DNA of 64,000 bases from Pseudomonadota bacterium (lineage in GTDB: Bacteria; Pseudomonadota; Gammaproteobacteria; Burkholderiales; Rhodocyclaceae): contig JAKOZI010000315.1 of the NCBI GenBank assembly GCA_029780075.1, forward strand, positions 1 to 64,000, read 5' to 3'. Below are positions 43,770 to 59,245 of this stretch, piece after piece. Within the stretch, counting starts at the first letter, position 1. Each line of letters begins with the position of its first letter. The translations under genes were made by a program, and so were the position numbers. The notes under the pieces are model-generated. The model saw only the letters and a program-made list of their open reading frames with translations. It did not search any database and was not told the DNA's origin.

Positions 43770-44876
43770 TCAGGCGCCGCGTTCGCGCATCCAGTTGCCA
43801 ACCGTCGGAGCCAGAACCTTTTGCGCCAGACCACCGGTGTAGATACCAATGTGCCCGGTGGCAATCGCAAACTCGGTGTAGTCCTTGCTGCCGACATGTT
43901 TGCCAAGGGCAACCGTGCATGGCGGCGGCACGATGTGGTCCTTTTCGGCAAAGATGTTGAGAATCGGAATGGTCAGTTCCTTCAGGTCGACCTTGCGGCC
44001 GCCAACTTCGAGGGTCCCCTTGACGAGTTTGTTCCCTTTCAGAAAGTCGCGAATGAACTCCTTGAACATCTGACCAACGGCATCGGGACCGCCAAACAAC
44101 CACTTCTCCATACGCAGGAAATTCTGCAGCGCCGCCCGATCGTCGAGAATATCGATTACATCGGCATACTTGCCGTAGTTCAGAATAAACGGCGAAGCCA
44201 TCATGAACGACTCGTTGAGTACGGTAGCCGGCACGTTGCCATGCACGGCGACCATCTTTTCGACATCGGCGTCGGCACCCATGGTGAACATCAAGCCTTC
44301 ATGCGGCTTGTGGTTCGCCTTGTAGGCGTCGAAATCGATCGGCGAAACGGTCAGGACAAGGTGGCTGATCTTGTCGGGATTGAGTGTTGCGTAGGTGGTC
44401 GACATGGCGCCACCCTGGCAGATACCAAACAGGGCGATCTTGTCGACACCCTGCTGTTTGCGGATGAAATCCACGGTATCGTCAAGGTAACCATTGAGGT
44501 AGTCGTCCATGTTCCGGTACTTGTCCACCTGGCGTGGATAGCCCCAGTCGTTGAGGAAGACGTCGATGCCCTGGTTCAACAGGTTACGGACCAGCGAACG
44601 GTCCGGTTGCAGGTCGGCCACCTCGTAACCATTGATCAACGGCGGTACGATGAGCAACGGCGTCTTCATGATTTTCGAAGGCTCGACCAATGCATGGTAG
44701 TGGTAGACCTTGATCCCGTCCTGTTCAAAAATCACATCTTTCGGCGTGCTGCCAATGTCGATATCGTCGTCGGTCAGGTTGGTGAGATTGTTGATGCCCT
44801 TGGCAAGCTTCGCGTTGAGCGCTGCGGTTTCAGCCGCGATGTCGGCGGGAAGAATCTGAATTGGAAAAGAAAACAT
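43770..44876 (-). CDS. phaC: Class III poly(R)-hydroxyalkanoate synthase subunit PhaC
   Basis: LLIVPPLINGYEVADLQPDRSLVRNLLNQGIDVFLNDWGYP, lipase-like box GICQGG, AEKDHIVPPP, TGHIGIYTGG; phaE upstream. Confidence 0.95.
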   Translation of the reverse strand: MFSFPIQILPADIAAETAALNAKLAKGINNLTNLTDDDIDIGSTPKDVIFEQDGIKVYHYHALVEPSKIMKTPLLIVPPLINGYEVADLQPDRSLVRNLLNQGIDVFLNDWGYPRQVDKYRNMDDYLNGYLDDTVDFIRKQQGVDKIALFGICQGGAMSTTYATLNPDKISHLVLTVSPIDFDAYKANHKPHEGLMFTMGADADVEKMVAVHGNVPATVLNESFMMASPFILNYGKYADVIDILDDRAALQNFLRMEKWLFGGPDAVGQMFKEFIRDFLKGNKLVKGTLEVGGRKVDLKELTIPILNIFAEKDHIVPPPCTVALGKHVGSKDYTEFAIATGHIGIYTGGLAQKVLAPTVGNWMRERGA

Positions 44877-44941
44877 GGGTAGCACCCTCCTAAAGGTCTA
44901 TTAGCTTATCAGCCGGATCAGCAAGGTTGAGGCTTCTCGGC

Positions 44942-46012
44942 TCATTCGCTCTTGGCACGCGCTGGCCCGGCCTTGCGAGGCACGCCTCCGCTTTTCGTAG
45001 ATGCGGTCGAATGCAGTTCCTGCCGGAGCGCCCGGACCTCTTTCTTTAGTTCGTGGATGACTTGATAGGTCTCGTCCAGTTCACTGCGCGTGGGCATATC
45101 CAGGCCACGGAAGATGTCCTCCACGACAGAGCGCTGGGCGAGCTTGAATTGCTGCTGAGCCTTGGTGAACGCGTTCTGCTTGTCGAGGAACTCTTGCGTA
45201 TTGAACGTGACCAACAGCGACTTGTCGGCCGTGCGATACCAGAGACCCATCAGTTGACGCACCGCGGTGATCTTTTCCCCCTTGGCCGCGACCTTCCCAA
45301 GCTCTTCGACGGTCGCCTCGACAGCCTTGGCCAGCGCCTCGGCAAAAGCCGTGTGAAACGACAGGCTGTTCTTGCGAAGATCGACGACTGCATCGACCAG
45401 GCGCAACAACTTCGCGTTCTTTTCACGCGACGCACCGAAGAGCGGAATTTCTCCGATGCCTGCGAGTGCACTGGCATCGCCTTCCATCGACAGCAGGCGA
45501 TTGAGCCCAGCGGTACCGCCCAGCATCGCTTCGCCGACGTGACCGGACGAAGCCGCCTGCATCAGGAACGACAGCCAGGGGCCCATGGCTTCGGGCAAGT
45601 CCTTGCTCAGCGTGCCGCTGAGACTGCCAAGGTGCGAACCCAAACCAAAACTGCGCTCGAGCATGGCCGTTGACTCCTTGGCCCACTGCTCCGCAAAACC
45701 CTTGAGGTCGGGACGCCAGTCCTTGTTTGCCTCCAGATTCGGCGCCACGATTTTCATCGATTTGAAGAAGAAATCCATGACGCGGTTCATCGCACCCTGA
45801 CTGCTGGTCATGCGGTCCATCAGCATGCGCGCAGCGTCGTTGGTTCCCTGGGTAGCGGCTTCAACGCCTTTTTTTGCTGCTTCAATGGGGCTTTCCTTGC
45901 CGCCTGGGAGATTCTGCAGCAACGCGGACCAATCGCCCCACATGCGCTTCTGCGAATCGGCCCAAGCGTTGACGATGCCGCCCAGTTGCTCATTCGGATT
46001 TTTGTTTTCCAC
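44942..46012 (-). CDS. phaE: Class III poly(R)-hydroxyalkanoate synthase subunit PhaE
   Basis: Helical protein directly upstream of class III phaC: MGLWYRTADKSLLVTFNTQEFLDKQNAFTKAQQQFKLAQRSVVEDIFRGLDMPTRSELDETYQVIHELKKEVRALRQEL. Confidence 0.92.
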   Translation of the reverse strand: MENKNPNEQLGGIVNAWADSQKRMWGDWSALLQNLPGGKESPIEAAKKGVEAATQGTNDAARMLMDRMTSSQGAMNRVMDFFFKSMKIVAPNLEANKDWRPDLKGFAEQWAKESTAMLERSFGLGSHLGSLSGTLSKDLPEAMGPWLSFLMQAASSGHVGEAMLGGTAGLNRLLSMEGDASALAGIGEIPLFGASREKNAKLLRLVDAVVDLRKNSLSFHTAFAEALAKAVEATVEELGKVAAKGEKITAVRQLMGLWYRTADKSLLVTFNTQEFLDKQNAFTKAQQQFKLAQRSVVEDIFRGLDMPTRSELDETYQVIHELKKEVRALRQELHSTASTKSGGVPRKAGPARAKSE

Positions 46013-46042
46013 TCCTGTGATCTCCTTTCAGTGTGTCGGACA

Positions 46043-46063
46043 CGCCTACCGCCACGGTAGGCG
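46043..46063. other. 9-bp perfect hairpin upstream of phaE
   Basis: CGCCTACCG-CCA-CGGTAGGCG. Confidence 0.5.
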
Positions 46064-46103
46064 GATGCCCTGCGGTAGACTGAGTGCACTCTTCAATCAA
46101 ACT

Positions 46104-46125
46104 GCGGCCGTCTGTCGACGGCCGC
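46104..46125. terminator. 9-bp perfect hairpin between maoC and phaE
   Basis: GCGGCCGTC-TGTC-GACGGCCGC downstream of the maoC stop on the minus strand; only a weak following T tract (AGTTTGATT). Confidence 0.45.
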
Positions 46126-46157
46126 GATCATGCAGCTTTTCTGGCTTCCGACGGGTG

Positions 46158-46580
46158 TCAGGCCAGGGCCACCACTGCATCTGCCTTGTGCTTTGCCTCG
46201 CCCTGCTCGTTAGCGCAGGTCAACTCGAGACGCACACATTTCTCCCCGCCTTGCTCCAGCTTTTCGACCACCTTGCCGGTACACACCAGACGCTCGCCAA
46301 CGTGCGTAATCGCCGTGAAGCGCACGCCAAAACTGCGGATCGCTTCCTGCGGCACCCACTGCGTCAGTACGCGCCCGAGGTAGGCCATACCCAGCATGCC
46401 GTGAGCAAAGACGTCGTCAATCCCTTTCGAGCGAACGTAGTCCTGGTCCAGGTGCAGGGGATGGTGGTCGCCGGAGCCCGTAGCATACAGGGCGAGAGTC
46501 AGACGCGATACCGGGTCCGTGGTCAACGACGGAATCTCGTCGCCCACGCTGAGCGCAGCAAAATTCGGTAGTGTCATCAT
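46158..46580 (-). CDS. MaoC-family (R)-specific enoyl-CoA hydratase-like protein
   Basis: ATGSGDHHPLHLDQDYVRSKGIDDVFAHGMLGMAYLGRVL: hydratase 2 (D/H) motif. Confidence 0.87.
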   Translation of the reverse strand: MMTLPNFAALSVGDEIPSLTTDPVSRLTLALYATGSGDHHPLHLDQDYVRSKGIDDVFAHGMLGMAYLGRVLTQWVPQEAIRSFGVRFTAITHVGERLVCTGKVVEKLEQGGEKCVRLELTCANEQGEAKHKADAVVALA

Positions 46581-46587
46581 CTTTCCC

Positions 46588-47028
46588 CTATGCCCGAATG
46601 ACCATCACGGAGTGCACATCGCACACCAGTTCGCCCTGCCGGCTGACTTTCACATCCTTGACGACAAACTGCAACGCACCGTTCTTCTTGTCGTAGATGT
46701 CGGTCACCTGTCCATCGAAGTCCAGCGTGTCTCCGGAATAGACGGGTTTGTGATAGGTAAAGGATTGCTCACCGTGCAGCATCTTCCCAAGATCGCAGCC
46801 CATAGTTTCGAGATAATCGAAGGGATGCTCCTTGTCCATGTCCATACAGAAGAAAAAGGTCGGCGGTGCCAGCACGCCGGGCAGCCCTGCCTTTTGCGCT
46901 GCCGCCTCGTCAAAGTAGATGGGATTGGTTTCTCCCGTCGCCTTGGCGAACCACTTCAATTGCCACGCCGTCAAATGTACGGAATGTGGCGGCACCTTCA
47001 TGCCAATGTGCTTCTTGTCAATCAACAT
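46588..47028 (-). CDS. MaoC N-terminal/FAS1-type hydratase-like hotdog protein
   Basis: FAKATGETNPIYFDEAAAQKAGLPGVLAPPTFFFCMDMD, GEQSFTYHKPVYSGDTLDFDGQVTDIYDKK. Confidence 0.87.
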   Translation of the reverse strand: MLIDKKHIGMKVPPHSVHLTAWQLKWFAKATGETNPIYFDEAAAQKAGLPGVLAPPTFFFCMDMDKEHPFDYLETMGCDLGKMLHGEQSFTYHKPVYSGDTLDFDGQVTDIYDKKNGALQFVVKDVKVSRQGELVCDVHSVMVIRA

Positions 47029-47086
47029 CCGATTCACTCCTCGTCCGCTCCGGAGACCGGGGCGGACATGCCCGTTAGCGACTTGA

Positions 47087-48267
47087 TCAGAGAACTTCGA
47101 TGGCAATCGCCGTCGCCTCGCCACCACCGGCACAGAGGCCGGCGATGCCGCGCTTGAGGCCACGCGCCTTGAGTGCGTAGAGCAGCGTCACCAGAATCCG
47201 CGACCCCGTCGCGCCGATCGGATGCCCGAGCGCGCAAGCACCGCCATTGACGTTGACCTTGTCGTGCGGCAGATCGAGGTCGCGCATCGAAGCCATCGTC
47301 ACCGCCGCAAAGGCCTCATTGATTTCCCAAAGGTCAACGTCCTTCGCTTCCCAACCGACCTTTTTCAACAGCTTCTGGAAGGCAAATACCGGCGCTGTCG
47401 TAAACCAGGCAGGATCATGGGCAAAAGTAGCATGCCCGACAATCCGCGCCAACGGCGCCAGACCAGCGGTCTTCGCGTCGGATTCGCGCATCAGAACAAA
47501 GGCTGCGGCGCCATCCGAAATCGACGAGGAATTCGCGGGCGTCACCGCACCATCCTTCTTGAAAGCCGGCTTGAGTTTGGCGATCTTCGACACGTCGCAC
47601 TTCATCGGCGTCTCGTCGAGTGAAATCACTTCCGCCCCCCTGCGGGTGGTCACCGTAACCGGCGCGATCTCGGCGCTGAAAACCCCGGCGGTGACTGCGC
47701 TTTGCGCACGCGTCACCGACTCGACGGCAAAGGCATCCATTTCCTCGCGCGAAAAGCTGTACTTGTCCACGCACAGTTCCGCGAAAGCACCCATCAGCTT
47801 GCCTTGCTCGTAGGCATCCTCAAGGCCATCCAGAAACATGTGATCGAATACCTGTCCGTTGCCAAGCCGATAGCCCGCACGTGCGTTGGTCAATACGTAC
47901 GGGGCATTGGTCATCGACTCCATACCCCCGGCAACAGCGATATTGATCGTACCGGCCAGCAATTCGTCATGCGCGATCATCACCGTTTTCTGCGCAGAAC
48001 TACACATCTTGGTCAAGGTGGTGCACGGCACCGACTTCGGCAAACCGGCCCCCAACACCGCCTGGCGCGCGGGCGCCTGGCGCACACCAGCCATGAGACA
48101 GCAACCCATCAACGCTTCATCGACATCGTCGCCATTGACGCCCGCCTGTTCGACCGCGGCCTTGATGGCGACGCTGGCCAGTTGCGGGGCCGTCAAGCCC
48201 GCAAACTGCCCCTGAAAGGCACCCACTGGCGTGCGCTTGGCGCCCACTATTACCACTGATTCACTCA
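47087..48267 (-). CDS. phaA: Acetyl-CoA acetyltransferase (thiolase)
   Basis: VIVGAKRTPVGAFQGQFAG, KMCSSAQKTVMIAHDEL, VAGGMESMTNAPYVL, NVNGGACALGHPIGATGSRILVTLLYAL, GLCAGGGEATAIAIE. Confidence 0.93.
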
Positions 48268-48326
48268 TAAGACACTCCTTGATTGCAACGGAAACTGCCA
48301 GATTGAAGTCTGCTGCGGTCCGCTGG

Positions 48327-49094
48327 TTACTTCGGCGCCATCCGGATCGAGCCGTCAAGACGAATCACTTCGCCGTTCAGATAGCCGTTCTCGCAGATGT
48401 GCCGGACCAGTGCTGCGTATTCGGCGGGCTTGCCCAGCCGCGACGGGAACGGCACCATCTTGCCCAGCGAATCCTGCGCGGCTTGCGGCAGGCCCTTGAG
48501 CATCGGCGTCTCGAAAATACCCGGAGCAATCGTCGCAACGCGAATTCCATGCGCAGCAAGTTCACGTGCGACAGGCAGCGTCAGACCAATGACCCCGGCC
48601 TTGGAGGAAGCATAGGCAGCCTGGCCAATCTGACCATCGTAGCCGGCAACCGAAGCCGTGTTGACAATCACGCCGCGCTCGCCGCCCTCGTTCGGCTCGT
48701 TCTTGCTCATGGCCTCGGCGGCCAGGCGAATCATGTTGAAGGTGCCCACCAGATTGATGCTGACCACGCGCGCGAAGGTCGCCAGATCATGCGGGCCATC
48801 GCGGCCAAGCACCTTCTTGGGTGGTGCGACACCGGCGCAGTTGACCAGTCCGTGCAGTGCGCCGAACTCGTTCACTGCCATTTCGATGGCGGCGCGTGCA
48901 CTCGCCTCATCGGTCACGTCGGTCTTCGCGAAGCGGGCATTGGGCCCCAGTTGCGCCGCCTGTGCCTCACCGGCACCAGCGTCGACATCCACAATGACCA
49001 CTTTCGCACCGGCGTTGACCAGGCTGCTCGCCGTTTCCGCTCCGAGTCCGGACCCTGCTCCGGTTACCACAAACACACTGCCATTGATTTGCAT
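48327..49094 (-). CDS. SDR-family 3-hydroxyacyl-CoA dehydrogenase
   Basis: [87 protein letters not shown]: type 2/HSD10-like. Confidence 0.9.
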
Positions 49095-49705
49095 TTTTAC
49101 CCCCAAAAAAATATCGCGACATCACACAATGCCGCGCTACTGGCCTGTACCGACGGCGCTCATTGAGAACACTGATCGTCACAGAAAAACCCGACTCTCT
49201 TGGCGATACGAGACTCCCTGGAAGCGCGCGTGTCGGTACCAAGGAATGCCACCCCGCAACAGACCTCATCGAGTAACCTCAGCCCGGCAAGCACCATCGC
49301 GCTTCGCGCTTGCAGACTTGCCTCGGACCGGCGGCGAGCAATCCCGCCATTGTCGAGCGCAGACGACTGCCGAGTCAAGCACCGAGCGCCGGCACGCCAC
49401 TTGCAGCAACGCCGGCACGATGCCAAGTGTCGTCACAGGAGCCTGGAGGAGCATTCAGCCAGCCAAGGGGGGGGCTACTTGCTGATCTGGCAGCCTGCCG
49501 GCACGCTGTTCCCGCCTGGCGGGTCTGCGGCGAAAATGACTCTGCTGGCCGGGCGGCGAATATTTTGGCTACAGGTATACCTTCGTTGTTACTCAATGTT
49601 GACCTGGATCAGGCCGTGCTCCGCGGTATCCTTTAGCATCCCAATTGCTTGGGTGCGTTGCCGCCCCGGGCTGAAGGTTGTTTCAGCAGTCAACGGAGAA
49701 TACTC

Positions 49706-51736
49706 ATGGTCGAAACGCTTAAAGAACCCCTTGATCCGGCCGCTACCCCCGCCGCGACCACATCCGATTCTGGTGCCGCCGCAAAGCGGCCCGCCCGGCC
49801 CAGAGCGACGCGCCGGAAGAAGACTGCGGAACTCCCGGCGGGCACGTCGGCCGAAATTGCCGCTGCCGTAGCGGCAGCGCCCTCAAGCCCTGTGGCGGCC
49901 ATGCCGCCGCTGACTGCCGCCGCGGCGGCGATTGCGGCTGCGCCCACCACGCCCTCCGAGTCGCCGCCGCGAGCAGACTACTCTCGACGTCTGGGTGATC
50001 GCCACCTGCTGGATTCCGATGCCCTGGAAAACATCGACCGGATGACCAACGTCGCGCTCGGTCAGTTGAGCGGTGGTATCTCGCCGGCTTCACTGGCTAT
50101 GGCCTATCTGGATTGGACCGTGCATCTGGCGGCCTCTCCCGGCAAACAGTTCCAACTCGCCGCCAAGGCCGCCCGCAAGGCGATGCGCCTCGGCGCGTAC
50201 GCGCTTTCCTCGGCGGTCACCGGCAATGCCGAAGCCTGCATCAAGCCTCTCCCCGGCGACCATCGCTTTGATCATCCGGGCTGGCAGCGCTTTCCGTACA
50301 ACGTGATTTACCAGGGCTTCCTGCTCAACCAGCAATGGTGGCACAACGCCACCACCGGCATTCGCGGCGTCTCGAAGCACGGCGAGGCGGCAGTCTGGTT
50401 CACCGCCAAGCAGATCCTGGACATGACGGCTCCCTGCAATGTGCCATTCATGAACCCCGAGATCGTGGAAGCCACCGGCAACGAACGCGGCGCCAATCTG
50501 GCGCGCGGCGCCAAGTACTATGGCGAGGACATCCGCCGCTCCCTGCGCGACGAGAAGCCGGTCGGAGTCGACGCCTTCAAGGTCGGGGAAAACCTCGCCG
50601 TCACACCCGGCAAGGTCGTCTATCGTAACCTGTTGATGGAACTGATCCAGTACTCGCCAAGCACGGACACTGTCCAGCGCGAACCGGTTCTGATGCAATC
50701 CGCATGGATGATGAAGTACTACATCCTGGACTTGTCACCGCACAATTCGCTGGTCAAGTACCTCGTCGATCGGGGCCACACGGTATTCATGGTCTCGTGG
50801 CTGAACCCGGGTGCGGAACACCGGAATCTGGGCATGGAGGATTACCGCAAGCTGGGAACACTGGCCGCGATCAACGCCATCTCGGACATCCTCCCGGGCC
50901 GCAAGATCCACACCGTCGGCTACTGCCTGGGCGGCATTCTGTTGACCATTGCCGCAGCCGCGATGGCCCGCGACGGCGACGACCGCCTGGCCAGCGTCAC
51001 CCTGTTCACCACCATGACCGACTTCACCGAGGTCGGTGAAATCAACGTCTTCATGGACGCCAGCGAGGTGACCCTGCTCGAGGACATGATGTGGCAGAAG
51101 GGTTACCTGGACCACAAACAGGTCTCTGGAGGATTCCAGTTGCTCAAGTCGGCCGACCTGATCTGGTCGAAGATGGTTCGCGAGTACTACCTTGGCCACC
51201 GCGAACCGATGTTCGACCTGATGGCCTGGAACGCCGACGGCACGCGCATGCCCTATCGCCAGCATTCGGAGGTCCTGCGCCGGCTGTATGTAGACAATCA
51301 ATTGTTCCAGGGCAAATACATGGTCGATGGACGCGCCATTTCGATCAGCAACATTCATGCGCCGATCTTTGCCGTCGCCGCCGGTGCCGACCACGTCGCG
51401 CCCTGGCGTTCCGTGTACAAGTTACACCTGCAGAGCGACGCCACCGAACTGACGTTCGTTCTGACCAGTGGTGGGCACAACGTTGGTATCGTCAATGAAC
51501 CGGGCCGTCCACGTCGATCCTACCAACTCAGCGTTTGCCACGAGGGAGAACGCTGCCTGGATGCCGATACCTGGAAAGAAAGGGCCCCGGTGTATCAAGG
51601 CTCGTGGTGGCCGGTGTGGCAGGAATGGCTCACACGGCATTCATCGGGCACTGAACCGGCACCGCCGATGGGCGCGCCCGAGAAAGGCTACGCGCCGCTC
51701 TGTGACGCCCCGGGAACCTACATTCTGCAACAGTAG
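49706..51736 (+). CDS. phaC: Class I poly(R)-hydroxyalkanoate synthase
   Basis: HPGWQRFPYNVIYQGFLLNQQWWHNATTGIRGVSKH, VSWLNPGAEHRNLGMEDY, HTVGYCLGGILL, VAAGADHVAPW, LTSGGHNVGIVNEPG; Ala/Pro-rich basic N-terminus. Confidence 0.96.
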   Translation: MVETLKEPLDPAATPAATTSDSGAAAKRPARPRATRRKKTAELPAGTSAEIAAAVAAAPSSPVAAMPPLTAAAAAIAAAPTTPSESPPRADYSRRLGDRHLLDSDALENIDRMTNVALGQLSGGISPASLAMAYLDWTVHLAASPGKQFQLAAKAARKAMRLGAYALSSAVTGNAEACIKPLPGDHRFDHPGWQRFPYNVIYQGFLLNQQWWHNATTGIRGVSKHGEAAVWFTAKQILDMTAPCNVPFMNPEIVEATGNERGANLARGAKYYGEDIRRSLRDEKPVGVDAFKVGENLAVTPGKVVYRNLLMELIQYSPSTDTVQREPVLMQSAWMMKYYILDLSPHNSLVKYLVDRGHTVFMVSWLNPGAEHRNLGMEDYRKLGTLAAINAISDILPGRKIHTVGYCLGGILLTIAAAAMARDGDDRLASVTLFTTMTDFTEVGEINVFMDASEVTLLEDMMWQKGYLDHKQVSGGFQLLKSADLIWSKMVREYYLGHREPMFDLMAWNADGTRMPYRQHSEVLRRLYVDNQLFQGKYMVDGRAISISNIHAPIFAVAAGADHVAPWRSVYKLHLQSDATELTFVLTSGGHNVGIVNEPGRPRRSYQLSVCHEGERCLDADTWKERAPVYQGSWWPVWQEWLTRHSSGTEPAPPMGAPEKGYAPLCDAPGTYILQQ

Positions 51737-53995: not shown

Positions 53996-55462
53996 ATGTT
54001 TGCACTGCTAAGGGAAATGCCTGATTTCACCACGAGTTGGTGGAGGTACATGCTGGCGATGATGCGCGCCTCGAACCGCGAAGTCAGCGAATTCAACGAC
54101 AACCTCTTCATTGCCGCACACATTGCCATGACCGCGGCGCGCGACAACCCGCTGAGCATGCTGGAAGCTTTCGAGATCGTCGAGCACAACGTCGGCATGG
54201 CCCGCAAAGGGATGGCCGGCATGCAGGGCAAGATGGCCGACTACGCTTTCGATCAGGTCGAGGAAGGCACACGCGCGTTCCTGAACACCGTCCTGAAGGC
54301 GGATGGCGAGAAACTGGGTGGCTACATGCGTCGCGAAGCCGAAATCATGGAATCGGTTTCGAACTTCAACGAGCAGATCGAGGCCATCGCCGACGAGTTC
54401 GGTTTCCATTTCAACACCCCGAACTACAAGCTGGTCCATGAAACCGACGCCTTCGAGCTCTACCAGGTGCTGCCGCTGAAGGCCGGCGTCGAAGTTCGCA
54501 AGGATCTGAAGCCGGTCATCCTCGTTCCGCCCTACATGCTGGGCGTACACATCCTGGCGTTCCTGCCGTTCGAGGGCAAGAGCTACAGCCACGCGTTCGC
54601 CAACGAAGGCATTCCCACCTACGTCCGCGTCGTCAAGGACATCATGACCAACGAGAAGGTCCAGACGCTGACGCCGGAGCAGGACTGCGAACAGACCCGC
54701 CAACTGTGCGCCAAGGCCATGGAACTCAACGACGGCAAGAAAGTCACGCTGAACGGCACCTGCCAGGGCGGTTACATCTCGCTGATGAATATTCTGTCGG
54801 GCAAACTGAAGGACGTCTGCGACGCCCTGATTACCAATGTGACCCCGGTTGACGGCACCTACAGCGACGCCATCAGCGGCATGCCGACGATGCACCACGA
54901 TTTCATCACCACGACGCTGCCGAGCGGTAACAAGGTCGCCAACGGCTACCTGCTGAGCCTGGGAATGCGCTTCGTCGCCATTGACCGGGAAACCCCGCTG
55001 GTGAAAGTGCTCGATCAGGTTTCGCTGCATCGGGCCACCGACCTGAACCCCGGCAAGACGCCGGCAGCGCTGTTCCGCTGGTTGCTCAAGGAACGTGTGC
55101 ACCTGCCGCTGGCAATTGCCAACATGAGTTCGCACACCTTCCAGGATCCGATCGCCAACGACGGGACCCTGCCGGTGAAACTGTTCGATCAGCCGTTGAA
55201 CATCAAGAACCTGATCGAGTTGAACGTGCCGTGGTACCAGAACTACGCGATCAAGGACGACCTCGTCACGCCACCGTGCGCCACCGCCGGCAACAAGTTC
55301 CTCGAAGGTTGGGACCGTCTCGAGTCGGTCGCCTTCTTCGGCGGACACGTGGCCATCCTGACCAGTCCGCACGGCAAAAAGGCCCCGGTCACCGGCTCCT
55401 TCACCGACGCCAACGGCAAAGCGTCGCGCGGACCAGTCAAATTCCAGATCGACATTTCCTGA
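53996..55462 (+). CDS. Divergent PhaC-like alpha/beta hydrolase (third PHA synthase-like protein)
   Basis: [35 protein letters not shown] (GxCxG nucleophile box), [16 protein letters not shown] (Asp loop), [14 protein letters not shown] (His loop); lacks the full class I N-domain. Confidence 0.78.
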
Positions 55463-55706: not shown

Positions 55707-56483
55707 ATGAGCTATGTCAACATCAACGCCGAAGTGCGCGGAAAAGTCGGCCTGATCACTCTCAACCGCCCCAAGCAACTGAATGCCTTGAACGATGACC
55801 TGATGGACGAACTGGGCAGCGCTCTGGCCACCTTCGAGGCCGACGAAAACATCGGCGCGATCGTCATCACCGGCTCGGACAAGGCCTTTGCTGCCGGTGC
55901 CGACATTACCGTCATGCAGTCCCTGACTTACATGGAAGCCTACAAGGGCGACTTCATCACCCGCAACTGGGACAGCCTCAAGAGCTGCCGCAAACCGGTG
56001 ATTGCTGCGGTTGCCGGCTACGCACTCGGCGGCGGCTGCGAACTGGCGATGATGTGCGACATCATCCTGGCTGCCGACAACGCGCAATTTGGCCAGCCCG
56101 AAGTTCGTCTGGGAATTCTCCCCGGCGCCGGTGGCACGCAGCGCCTGCCGCGGGCGATTTCCAAGGCCAAGGCCATGGAGATGTGCCTGGCCTCGCGTAA
56201 CATCGACGCCACGGAAGCCGAGCGCGCCGGTCTGGTTTCACGGGTCGTCCCGGCCGACAAGCTCCTCGATGAGGCGATGGCCACCGCCACCCGCATCGCC
56301 AGCTTCTCGCTGCCGGTCGTGATGATGATCAAGGAGTGCATCAACCGCTCCTACGAGAGCTCGCTTTCCGAAGGTCTGCTTTTCGAACGCCGCACGTTCC
56401 ACTCGGCTTTTGCTCTGGAAGACCAGAAGGAAGGCATGGCGGCTTTCGTCGAAAAGCGCAAACCCTCGTTCTCCAACCGCTGA
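55707..56483 (+). CDS. Enoyl-CoA hydratase/isomerase (crotonase family)
   Basis: [98 protein letters not shown]. Confidence 0.95.
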
Positions 56484-56553: not shown

Positions 56554-59109
56554 TCAGCAGTGAGCCAGATCGACGGCATTGTGGATCGTGATCTGGTCCA
56601 CCCACGCCTTGGCGTAAACCGTGCTATAGATGTTCGCGCAAGCCGCCACTTCGAGCGTCAGCGTGACGCTGCGATCGGCAAACTGCTTCAGGTCGATCGC
56701 CGCCTGGCGCAGCCATTCGGTCTCCTGGTGCACCATGCCGATCGCCGTGACTTCATCGACGACAATACCGTCGACCAGGACGCGGAAACTCGCGCTGGTG
56801 TAGTCATTGACGCCAGCGCTGAGATCGAGGCGTCGCACGTAGCTCAGTTCCGGCCGCGGACCGAGTTTGATCCGCCGTGAGATCGACTGGGCGCGTGCGC
56901 CGAGGGCACCGTGATCACCCGATGCGGCGTGACCATAGAGCATCGGCCCACCGCGAAATGCACGCGGGTCTTCGAGCAGCAGTTCCCATCCCGCACCTTC
57001 CCAGCCGGCGGTCTTGAGCGCAGCTTCGGGTTGCGCCGAAGCAGAACGCTGCGCAATACCTTTCAGCACGCCTGCCGCTTCCAGTGCCGTCGAAATGATC
57101 CCGGGAACGTCGATCCCCAGTGGCGCCGAACTGTCCGGGCGTCGGTTCGTGGTGCCCGCCTTGAGCAGGCCAGCCGCTTCCAGCGACGCGGAAATGATGC
57201 CATGGACATCGAGCCCGAAGGGTCGGCCGGCCGCGGCACGCTGCCCCGGTGCCGCTGAACCACGTGGCGGATTGGTGTCGCGCGCGGCATGTTCCTTGAA
57301 CCCCCTCTCGCCGCGGTCGAGTGCGCGGGCGTCATGGCCTCCTTGCCCAGCCGCCGCCGGTTCGGCCTGCGCGAGACCGGCTGTATTAGCCGGCCGGTCG
57401 GTGAGCAATCCCCAGAAATCGGCGATCCGGTGTGTCGATGAAATCCCTACCGCGTTGAAGAACGGCGCCGCCGTACCGCACTGGTGGGGCTCGGCGCCCG
57501 GATCGAGGGCAGCACCGTGGCCCATGCCGAGTACCGTGTAGGACTCGATCAGTTCTTCGCCGCTGGGCCCCTGCCAGGCCCGGCGCGAATGGCCGTCAAC
57601 CGTCATCTGGATCGTCGGCTGCGCATCGAGGCCGTGCACGTCGGCCCATTGCTTGATGATTTCTTCGGCATTGACCGGCTTGACGGCGGTATCGGCGTCA
57701 CCATGCCAGACCGAGACTTTCGGCCATGGCCCCTGGTGGGACGACGCCGCGCGCACCAGTTGCCCCCACTCCCCGGCCGATCGAGACCGCCCCTGGAAGA
57801 TGCTCTCGAGACCTTCCTGCAAACCCTTGGCGGTACGGTAAGGAACCCCGGCGAGCACGGCGCCGCCGGCGAACACCTCCGGATAGGTCGCCAGCATGAC
57901 CGTGGTCATGGCGCCGCCCGACGAAGTACCGGTAACGAAGACCTGCCGGCGATCGAGACCATGATCGTGCAACATCCGGTCGACCATCTGCCGGATCGAC
58001 AACGGCTCACCCTTGTCACGCTCGTTGTCTTCCGGCTTGAACCAGTTGAAGCAGCGCAGCGGGTTGTTGTTCCACTGCTGCTGCGGCAGCAGGAGCGCGA
58101 AACCGTAGCGATCGGCGAGCGTCGACCAGCCGCTGCCCTTGTTGTACGAGGCTGCGCTTTGCGTACAGCCGTGCAGCACGACGACCAGCGGCGCGTTGGC
58201 CGGCAGCCGTTCGGGGACGTAGCTATACATCCGCAGTTCGCCGGGATTGGTGCCGAAACCGATCACTTCCAGCAGGCGGCCCTTCTCCTGCGACTCCACC
58301 TGCTCCGACCACGCCTGGACCGCCGTCAGGGCGGAAAGGAGCTTTTCCCAGCGACTTCCGTGCGGCGTCTTGGCCGCGAGTTTTGCCATGTTGGCGATGG
58401 CGGCCACTTTATGGCCCAGTTTGTTGATCATTGGACGACTCCTGTCATCGGACAAGGTGGTGAGCAGACCGATCTCGATCAGCTTGCGGACCGGCAAGAA
58501 AACGGAGTGGAACAGGCCGGGATCGACCGTGCCACCGCGTTGGGGGTCAAGCCAGGCCGGCGGAGCGGCGTCCGGGGCCAGGCCATAGGTATGACTGACG
58601 AGCGCACGCCGGCCCTGCCAGCAGGCGCTGAACTGCAGCGAGGCAACCGGGCAGCCACGGTTGATCCACACGCCAAACACCTCGCTGGCGACTATCGCGC
58701 GCGTCTCTTCGGCACACGCCAGTTCCAGCAGGCCGGCCAGCGCCTCACCGAACGGCAGACCGTCCAGCCGTATCGACGATTCAGATAGTTTCTCTGCGTC
58801 CGCTGCCAACGCCGGGCCGAACAGTACTCGCGGGGTGTTGCCGCCGGCAGCCACCGCCGTCGGCAGCAAGTCGGCATAGCAACGAATGGCCTCCACGGTC
58901 TGCGCCTGTTGTGGCGCGGCCATCGCCCCGATCAGCAGATGCGCCGCGTAATGCGGCGTTGCCGGCGGCGAACCGCGTCCGCGCGGCCCCGGCGCCACCA
59001 GGCCGCCAGTGACCATCAGCGTGACGCGAAAGCGCAGGTCGCGACGCGATTCCCCGAGGATATCAGCAAGCCGCTCGCTGAATTCATAACGTGCAAGTCC
59101 ATTTACCAT
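56554..59109 (-). CDS. Multidomain PHB depolymerase-family esterase with unusual N-terminal (HTH-like) and C-terminal domains
   Basis: Depolymerase core LVVVLHGCTQSAASYNKGSGWSTLADRYGFALLLPQQQWNNNPLRCFNWF, VFVTGTSSGGAMTTVMLATYPEVFAGGAVLAGVPY, VSVWHGDADTAVKPVNAEEI, GMGHG. N-term RYEFSERLADILGESRRDLRFRVTLMVTGGLVAPGPRGRGSPPATPHYAAHLLIGAMAAP. Confidence 0.85.
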   Translation of the reverse strand: MVNGLARYEFSERLADILGESRRDLRFRVTLMVTGGLVAPGPRGRGSPPATPHYAAHLLIGAMAAPQQAQTVEAIRCYADLLPTAVAAGGNTPRVLFGPALAADAEKLSESSIRLDGLPFGEALAGLLELACAEETRAIVASEVFGVWINRGCPVASLQFSACWQGRRALVSHTYGLAPDAAPPAWLDPQRGGTVDPGLFHSVFLPVRKLIEIGLLTTLSDDRSRPMINKLGHKVAAIANMAKLAAKTPHGSRWEKLLSALTAVQAWSEQVESQEKGRLLEVIGFGTNPGELRMYSYVPERLPANAPLVVVLHGCTQSAASYNKGSGWSTLADRYGFALLLPQQQWNNNPLRCFNWFKPEDNERDKGEPLSIRQMVDRMLHDHGLDRRQVFVTGTSSGGAMTTVMLATYPEVFAGGAVLAGVPYRTAKGLQEGLESIFQGRSRSAGEWGQLVRAASSHQGPWPKVSVWHGDADTAVKPVNAEEIIKQWADVHGLDAQPTIQMTVDGHSRRAWQGPSGEELIESYTVLGMGHGAALDPGAEPHQCGTAAPFFNAVGISSTHRIADFWGLLTDRPANTAGLAQAEPAAAGQGGHDARALDRGERGFKEHAARDTNPPRGSAAPGQRAAAGRPFGLDVHGIISASLEAAGLLKAGTTNRRPDSSAPLGIDVPGIISTALEAAGVLKGIAQRSASAQPEAALKTAGWEGAGWELLLEDPRAFRGGPMLYGHAASGDHGALGARAQSISRRIKLGPRPELSYVRRLDLSAGVNDYTSASFRVLVDGIVVDEVTAIGMVHQETEWLRQAAIDLKQFADRSVTLTLEVAACANIYSTVYAKAWVDQITIHNAVDLAHC
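57061..57230 (-). repeat. Two imperfect in-frame repeats in the depolymerase-like protein
   Basis: PFGLDVHGIISASLEAAGLLKAG and PLGIDVPGIISTALEAAGVLKG; matching DNA at about 57161-57230 and 57061-57130. Confidence 0.8.
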
Positions 59110-59245
59110 GTGGCAACGATAGCGCGCCGCCTTCAGGATTGCAAGCTTTTATTTAGTAAGTGACAACTTTTAATTTTATTGTGCGGCGGGGACCGAGAAC
59201 ATCGCTGCCATTCGCCAAGGACCGCCAAGCCCTGCTCCTCTAGCG

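Follow-up and report, generated by a model that had tools for sequence, protein, structure and literature searches.

A predicted PHA depolymerase joined to a winged-helix-type head and accompanied by a conserved promoter element in Accumulibacter and other bacteria

The fusion gene and the PHA locus

The window (the whole 64,000-nucleotide stretch of DNA that was analysed) contains an 851-aa open reading frame with an ATG start at positions 56554..59109. A sequence-only reading had described this frame, without giving its strand; its extent and the segments quoted from it were confirmed, and it lies on the minus strand. The encoded protein is composed of a predicted winged helix, an esterase core, tail-helix repeats and a jelly roll.

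In Accumulibacter the fusion gene is situated in a PHA locus. In the window this locus includes class III PhaC and PhaE (43770-46012), a thiolase (47087-48358), class I PhaC (49649-51736), a PhaC-like protein of 488 aa with a GTCQGG box (53996-55462, plus strand) and an enoyl-CoA hydratase (55707-56483), with an acyl-CoA synthetase gene located between class I PhaC and the PhaC-like gene. The gene order over the span between the fusion gene and the acyl-CoA synthetase gene is preserved in nearly all Accumulibacter with long enough contigs, the exceptions being L076 and L079, and in many Accumulibacter class I PhaC comes next.

The class III PhaC/PhaE pair and class I PhaC of this Accumulibacter genome lie within one 8-kb stretch (43770-51736). 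The PhaC-like gene is kept beside the fusion gene across Accumulibacter. Its product, an alpha/beta hydrolase, has no Pfam match and matches class III PhaC weakly (E 3e-9). It is possibly a divergent PHA synthase or depolymerase, and is itself a rival candidate for the Accumulibacter depolymerase.

An in-frame stop lies 13 codons 5' of the ATG, which leaves no space for an N-terminal extension bearing a signal peptide. No signal peptide was found in the frame itself, where the most hydrophobic 19-residue stretch of residues 1-70 averages only 0.64 on the Kyte-Doolittle scale. The extracellular signal implied by the name of the type-1 short-chain PHA depolymerase family is absent from the 851-aa protein, as had been suspected when no secretion signal was apparent.

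Distribution and conservation

Of 28 Accumulibacter genomes, 27 have an ortholog of the 851-aa frame. Three of these orthologs are split or are truncated at a contig end; the complete ones are 74-86% identical and have no internal stops. Beyond Accumulibacter, a scan of the genome collection found the fusion gene in Candidatus Contendobacter/Competibacteraceae, Chromatiaceae, Candidatus Thiosymbion, one gammaproteobacterial MAG, one alphaproteobacterial MAG and Rhodospirillales MAGs. All four parts are present in each homolog with a complete gene. The identity to the window protein across genera is 72-98% in the winged helix, 63-82% in the catalytic domain, 49-75% in the jelly roll and 9-20% in the linker. 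The dN/dS ratio lies within 0-0.15 for all domains; the exceptions are the variable linker (0.34-1.0) and residues 51-100 (up to 0.27).

The copies from Contendobacter/Competibacteraceae (L080-L082, L108-L110) are 71-74% identical over the full length and group within Accumulibacter. The gene on contig JANQQD010000330.1 (L089), titled as an Anaerolineae MAG, is nearly identical to that of the alphaproteobacterial MAG L090; L089 is probably mis-binned or mis-titled.

Only 3 of 40 Competibacteraceae genomes carry the fusion gene, and the others carry single-domain esterases. In the tree of the core, the Competibacteraceae fusion copies are nested among Accumulibacter sequences (set support 99), suggesting transfer between sludge bacteria. 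Horizontal transfer of the fusion gene together with its promoter element is thus likely.

The sequence-only reading had proposed a search for the architecture in other PHA accumulators, and it was indeed found in hosts that have PhaC_N (8 of 8 host genomes). PHA genes adjoining the fusion gene were not found outside Accumulibacter. PF06850 (PHB_depo_C, the classical intracellular PhaZ) was above the cut-off in none of the 8 host genomes and none of the 28 Accumulibacter genomes, which leaves room for other depolymerase types. Among 93 other relatives, counted regardless of PHA storage, 24 have it.

The catalytic core

Residues 286-570 (57400..58254, minus strand) form a type-1 short-chain PHA depolymerase / Esterase_PHB core. 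This region scores 321 bits with NCBIfam NF050058 against a cut-off of 150 (residues 285-566), and matches PF10503 with an E-value of 1.7e-26 and a score of 93 against a cut-off of 23, in agreement with the esterase core that had been recognized by its GTSSGG motif. The predicted catalytic residues are Ser396 in the lipase box TGTSSGG (codon 57922..57924), Asp473 (codon 57691..57693) and His531 (codon 57517..57519), all encoded on the minus strand. Preceded by H313 of the oxyanion motif HGCTQ, itself invariant, they occur in the expected order, H313, S396, D473, H531, and are invariant in 29 sequences. We infer that the 851-aa protein is a short-chain PHA depolymerase with PHA as its substrate.

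The nearer single-domain relatives are ~300-375 aa long and have a core identity of 45-54%. In the core tree, a branch (SH-aLRT 88) separates the fusion cores from nine single-domain ones. The esterases of Mesorhizobium (WP_195180318.1) and Sinorhizobium (WP_324765409.1) are ~50-54% identical in the core and have the same tail helix (KVIEDALRAAGLMK). However, the single-domain alphaproteobacterial PHB depolymerase esterases, which are 300-370 aa long, have one tail helix and lack the winged helix, the jelly roll and the promoter element.

The solved structures closest to the core are those of feruloyl and acetylxylan esterases. TyrRS matches in the PDB were insignificant and were dropped. The 851-aa protein has no match to PF06850 or to the PhaR or PhaM families; its Pfam and NCBIfam matches are all to alpha/beta-hydrolase families, except for one chance match with an E-value of 0.22.

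The tail helices and the C-terminal domain

Two tail-helix repeats were identified, GLDVHGIISASLEAAGLLKA (residues 632-651, 57157..57216, minus strand) and GIDVPGIISTALEAAGVLKG (residues 665-684, 57058..57117, minus strand). Two copies had been noted before, but they are near-copies only, with 14 of 20 residues identical. Each fusion protein has two or three such repeats, with up to three in other genera. The repeats are copies of a tail helix that ends several single-domain relatives (...GKVIEDALRAAGLMK in Mesorhizobium, ...AKVINDALRAAGLMR in Sinorhizobium), including the single-domain esterases of two alphaproteobacterial genomes (...QIITRALTAAGLMK and ...DVIEKALRSAGLMR). Two Competibacteraceae relatives that have an N-terminal signal-like hydrophobic stretch are without the tail helix. 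In our reading, the repeat may be a duplicated targeting helix.

The last ~150 residues (700-851, 56557..57012, minus strand) are predicted by AF2 to form a beta sandwich, with pLDDT values mostly of 74-94 by 10-residue block. A Foldseek search of the PDB with this model found CBM6/36/61/28 and MAM domains with E-values of 4e-6 to 1e-3, but with TM-scores below 0.5. The tail is beta-rich, as had been observed. In place of the novel domain that had been proposed, its predicted fold is of a known type, a CBM-like jelly roll. A search for the C-terminal domain in plasmids gave nothing useful.

The N-terminal module

Residues 8-50 (58960..59088, minus strand) have the pattern of a winged helix, LADILG-ES-RRDLRFRVTLMVTGGLV-APGPRGRG, in which GPRGRG corresponds to the wing. 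A second part of the N-terminal module, residues 118-285 (58255..58758, minus strand), has a low-confidence model with the order helix-strand-strand-strand-helix; its alignment with the stand-alone family extends as far as residue 147. The N-terminal profile aligned with that of six stand-alone alphaproteobacterial proteins over columns 9-147 with an hhalign probability of 97% and an E-value of 5e-11; a C-terminal alignment used as a control gave 0.6%. Stand-alone proteins such as those of Azospirillum (TSH58_p02), Bosea (WP_173050208.1) and Paracoccus (WGR62176.1) share the N-terminal module (hhalign Prob 97), but are only 190-240 aa long and are not fused to an esterase.

This alphaproteobacterial family of winged-helix-like hypothetical proteins (L051, L052, L058, L095, L096, L097; 190-240 aa) has no Pfam family. 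For one of the stand-alone relatives there is a match to a phage terminase small-subunit PHROG family (E-value 8.5e-4). The N-terminus itself gave only chance matches to Pfam and PHROGs, and no N-terminal relatives were found in phages and plasmids by tblastn at E-values up to 10. Of the likeness to phage or rhizobial modules that had been proposed, the relation to alphaproteobacterial modules is supported. Weak N-terminal matches in a sample of the phylum (L022-L031) were unrelated ORFs and were discarded as chance.

Comparison of the 8-50 profile with the PDB gave 13 weak matches, the best with an E-value of 0.014, of which eight are named regulators (ArsR, CooA, GntR, AsnC, YvoA and similar). 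The winged-helix regulators among these matches, together with the hhalign result, support the earlier description of the N-terminus as HTH-like. Because AF2 modelled the N-terminus poorly (pLDDT 49), we can only infer the winged-helix fold; a Foldseek search with this model found no fold match.

Residues 8-50 are the most conserved part of the protein, with a dN/dS of 0-0.03. Residues S21, R22, R23, D24, L25, R26, R28, V29, T30, R43 and G44 are invariant and correspond to a basic recognition helix and the wing. The recognition helix is invariant across three proteobacterial classes, which suggests a specific target, and the winged-helix head presumably binds DNA.

The promoter and its conserved element

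The order of features 5' of the gene is AATTAAAAGTTGTCACTTACTAAATAA, TTGCAA, 17 bp, TATCGT and the ATG, all on the minus strand. AATTAAAAGTTGTCACTTACTAAATAA is a conserved element of ~27 bp (59149..59175) and a candidate operator. TTGCAA (59139..59144) is a -35-like hexamer, separated by a 17-bp spacer from the -10-like hexamer TATCGT (59116..59121), which is at -12 from the ATG. In all genera but Contendobacter the sequence TAnnnT begins at -12 or -13 relative to the ATG, suggesting that the transcript is probably leaderless. The element adjoins the -35 hexamer in every genus, and its CAC starts 52-54 bp before the ATG in all but Contendobacter, where the distance is ~40 bp greater.

Averaged over eight genera, the majority fraction reaches 0.85 within the element, compared with 0.48 in its flanks. 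When one mismatch is allowed, 7 of the 8 genera have a 10-mer in common, compared with at most 3 in 60 shuffles. Of the 35 fusion loci for which upstream sequence is available, 32 contain the exact sequence CACTTACTNAA, once each; among the 130 loci fetched, none that is without the fusion gene has it. The most conserved part of the element, GTCACTTACT, is not composed of A/T only.

The element was also searched for in 2.4 Mb, or 46%, of one related complete Accumulibacter genome. With the full matrix the site scored 46.8 bits and the next best place 18.5. With a matrix made from the gamma- and alphaproteobacterial sites only, the Accumulibacter site again ranked first, scoring 38.2 versus 11.8 in the 64-kb window and 38.9 versus 21.6 in the 2.4 Mb. 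At the single-domain esterase and stand-alone winged-helix genes nothing scored above 13.6. As there is no comparable second site, the element belongs to the fusion gene and not to a regulon within the part scanned.

Strong divergence of the promoter element (AGCATATATTAAAAAA) is seen in one lineage only, L092/L093. The winged helix of this lineage is also the most diverged, with P42R in the wing and the SRRDLR helix unchanged.

Comparison with known systems

The sequence-only reading had considered an intracellular depolymerase to be new. However, PhaZd/PhaZ6 of R. eutropha, which has an e-dPHAscl catalytic domain of type 1, has already been reported to be intracellular (PMC3430594, Table 1, referring to Abe et al. 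2005). It resembles the fusion protein in having a type-1 catalytic domain without export. The description of PhaZd given there mentions no DNA-binding domain, and it is by this description, not by sequence, that the two are set apart.

PutA, a proline dehydrogenase and autorepressor, is a proven trigger enzyme (PMC8249747). Like the fusion protein it combines an enzyme and a DNA-binding domain in one chain, the latter being predicted from sequence for the fusion protein. A single target at its own promoter and a proposed relocation to the side of the substrate would be further points in common. The DNA-binding domain of PutA is a ribbon-helix-helix, and PutA uses proline and the membrane, whereas the fusion protein would use a winged helix, the polymer and the granule.

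PhaR is a PHB-binding autorepressor (PMC9049629). In the presence of the polymer it dissociates from DNA, and it regulates its own gene, as is proposed for the fusion protein, but it lacks an enzymatic domain, has no detected homology to the fusion protein and also controls phasin genes. PhaM links granules to the nucleoid (PMC3556143). None of PutA, PhaR, PhaM and PhaZ6/PhaZd combines enzyme, polymer-sensing and DNA-binding parts. Among openly accessible papers, none describing such a fusion was found, and we know of no description of an autoregulating storage-polymer depolymerase.

A possible enzyme-regulator

The DNA-binding type of the head and the conserved element upstream of the gene suggest that the enzyme may act as a switch for its own gene; the position of the element beside the -35 hexamer allows both activation and repression. 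We consider it somewhat better than an even chance (about 55%) that the fusion protein is a bifunctional cytoplasmic enzyme-regulator, a PHA depolymerase that binds and controls its own promoter, and most likely a trigger enzyme. The type-1 core would hydrolyse stored short-chain PHA or its oligomers in the cytoplasm, the tail helices and jelly roll would be polymer- or granule-binding parts, and the winged helix would recognize the ~27-bp element beside the -35 hexamer of its own leaderless promoter. While bound to the granule the protein would degrade the polymer; when the polymer is scarce, free protein would sit on its own promoter. This proposal builds on features read directly from the sequences, namely the architecture, its spread over three classes, the intact triad, the missing signal peptide, the winged-helix motif and the dedicated promoter element. 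The PHA substrate, DNA binding, the element as the site of the protein, a regulation of either sign and the granule switch are the steps proposed in addition. Against it are the weak PDB matches of the winged helix, the poor AF2 model, the presence of adjoining PHA genes in Accumulibacter only, and L092/L093, in which the element has diverged although the SRRDLR helix is unchanged.

The winged helix might instead be a general tether to the nucleoid or to a partner, with a separate host-conserved regulator binding the promoter element. PhaM provides a precedent, and an AT-rich element beside the -35 hexamer could serve any activator; a different regulator may bind the candidate element. Nevertheless, within the 64-kb window and the 2.4 Mb of genome the element is tied only to the fusion gene; it also accompanies the fusion in three classes and is absent at single-domain esterases, which is most simply explained if the fusion protein itself reads it. 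As the invariant recognition helix also suggests a specific target, such a division of labour is unlikely. As regards the tethering to DNA or granules that had been suggested earlier, the conserved element at the protein's own promoter, which had been missed, favours autoregulation over a simple tether.

It is distinctly improbable that the protein is a cytoplasmic carboxylesterase, for instance a relative of the feruloyl and acetylxylan esterases, with a jelly roll that binds a sugar polymer. The closest solved structures and the mostly carbohydrate-binding matches of the jelly roll are consistent with such an enzyme. However, the signal peptide is absent, the NCBIfam PHA depolymerase model is matched well above its cut-off, the gene has a PHA neighbourhood in Accumulibacter, and PhaC is present in all hosts tested.

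The AT-rich ends of the element and its position at -66 to -40 beside the -35 hexamer would also suit a mere UP element or core promoter feature without a dedicated regulator, but its most conserved part is not A/T-only and is found nowhere else in the 2.4 Mb, leaving this explanation a low probability. Export of the enzyme with SRRDLRF as a Tat-like n-region, suggested by a twin arginine with a mildly hydrophobic segment after it (residues 21-40), was rejected as highly implausible, since hydrophobicity is low, acidic residues precede SRRDLRF, an AxA cleavage site is absent, and the stand-alone proteins that align with this segment have no twin arginine. Finally, a fusion created by frameshift, misassembly or chimeric binning, a concern raised earlier and natural for a window from a MAG-like assembly of 346 contigs, is refuted by the genus-wide orthologs without internal stops, the dN/dS values and the identical architecture both in other classes and in Accumulibacter genomes that consist of a single contig.

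In wastewater plants, phosphorus removal is driven by Accumulibacter, which cycles PHA through feast and famine phases. In this organism, where no member of the classical PhaZ family was detected (0 of 28 genomes), the fusion protein is a concrete candidate for the depolymerase, and it carries a built-in putative regulator and a defined DNA element. More tentatively, and at somewhat less than an even chance, the protein would be a polymer-sensing trigger enzyme that degrades PHA, gauges free enzyme against polymer through the winged helix and the element, and thereby sets its own expression. It would then be the intracellular depolymerase of Accumulibacter and other feast-famine bacteria for which no classical PhaZ was detected, and would have been transferred, along with its operator, from one lineage to others unrelated to it.
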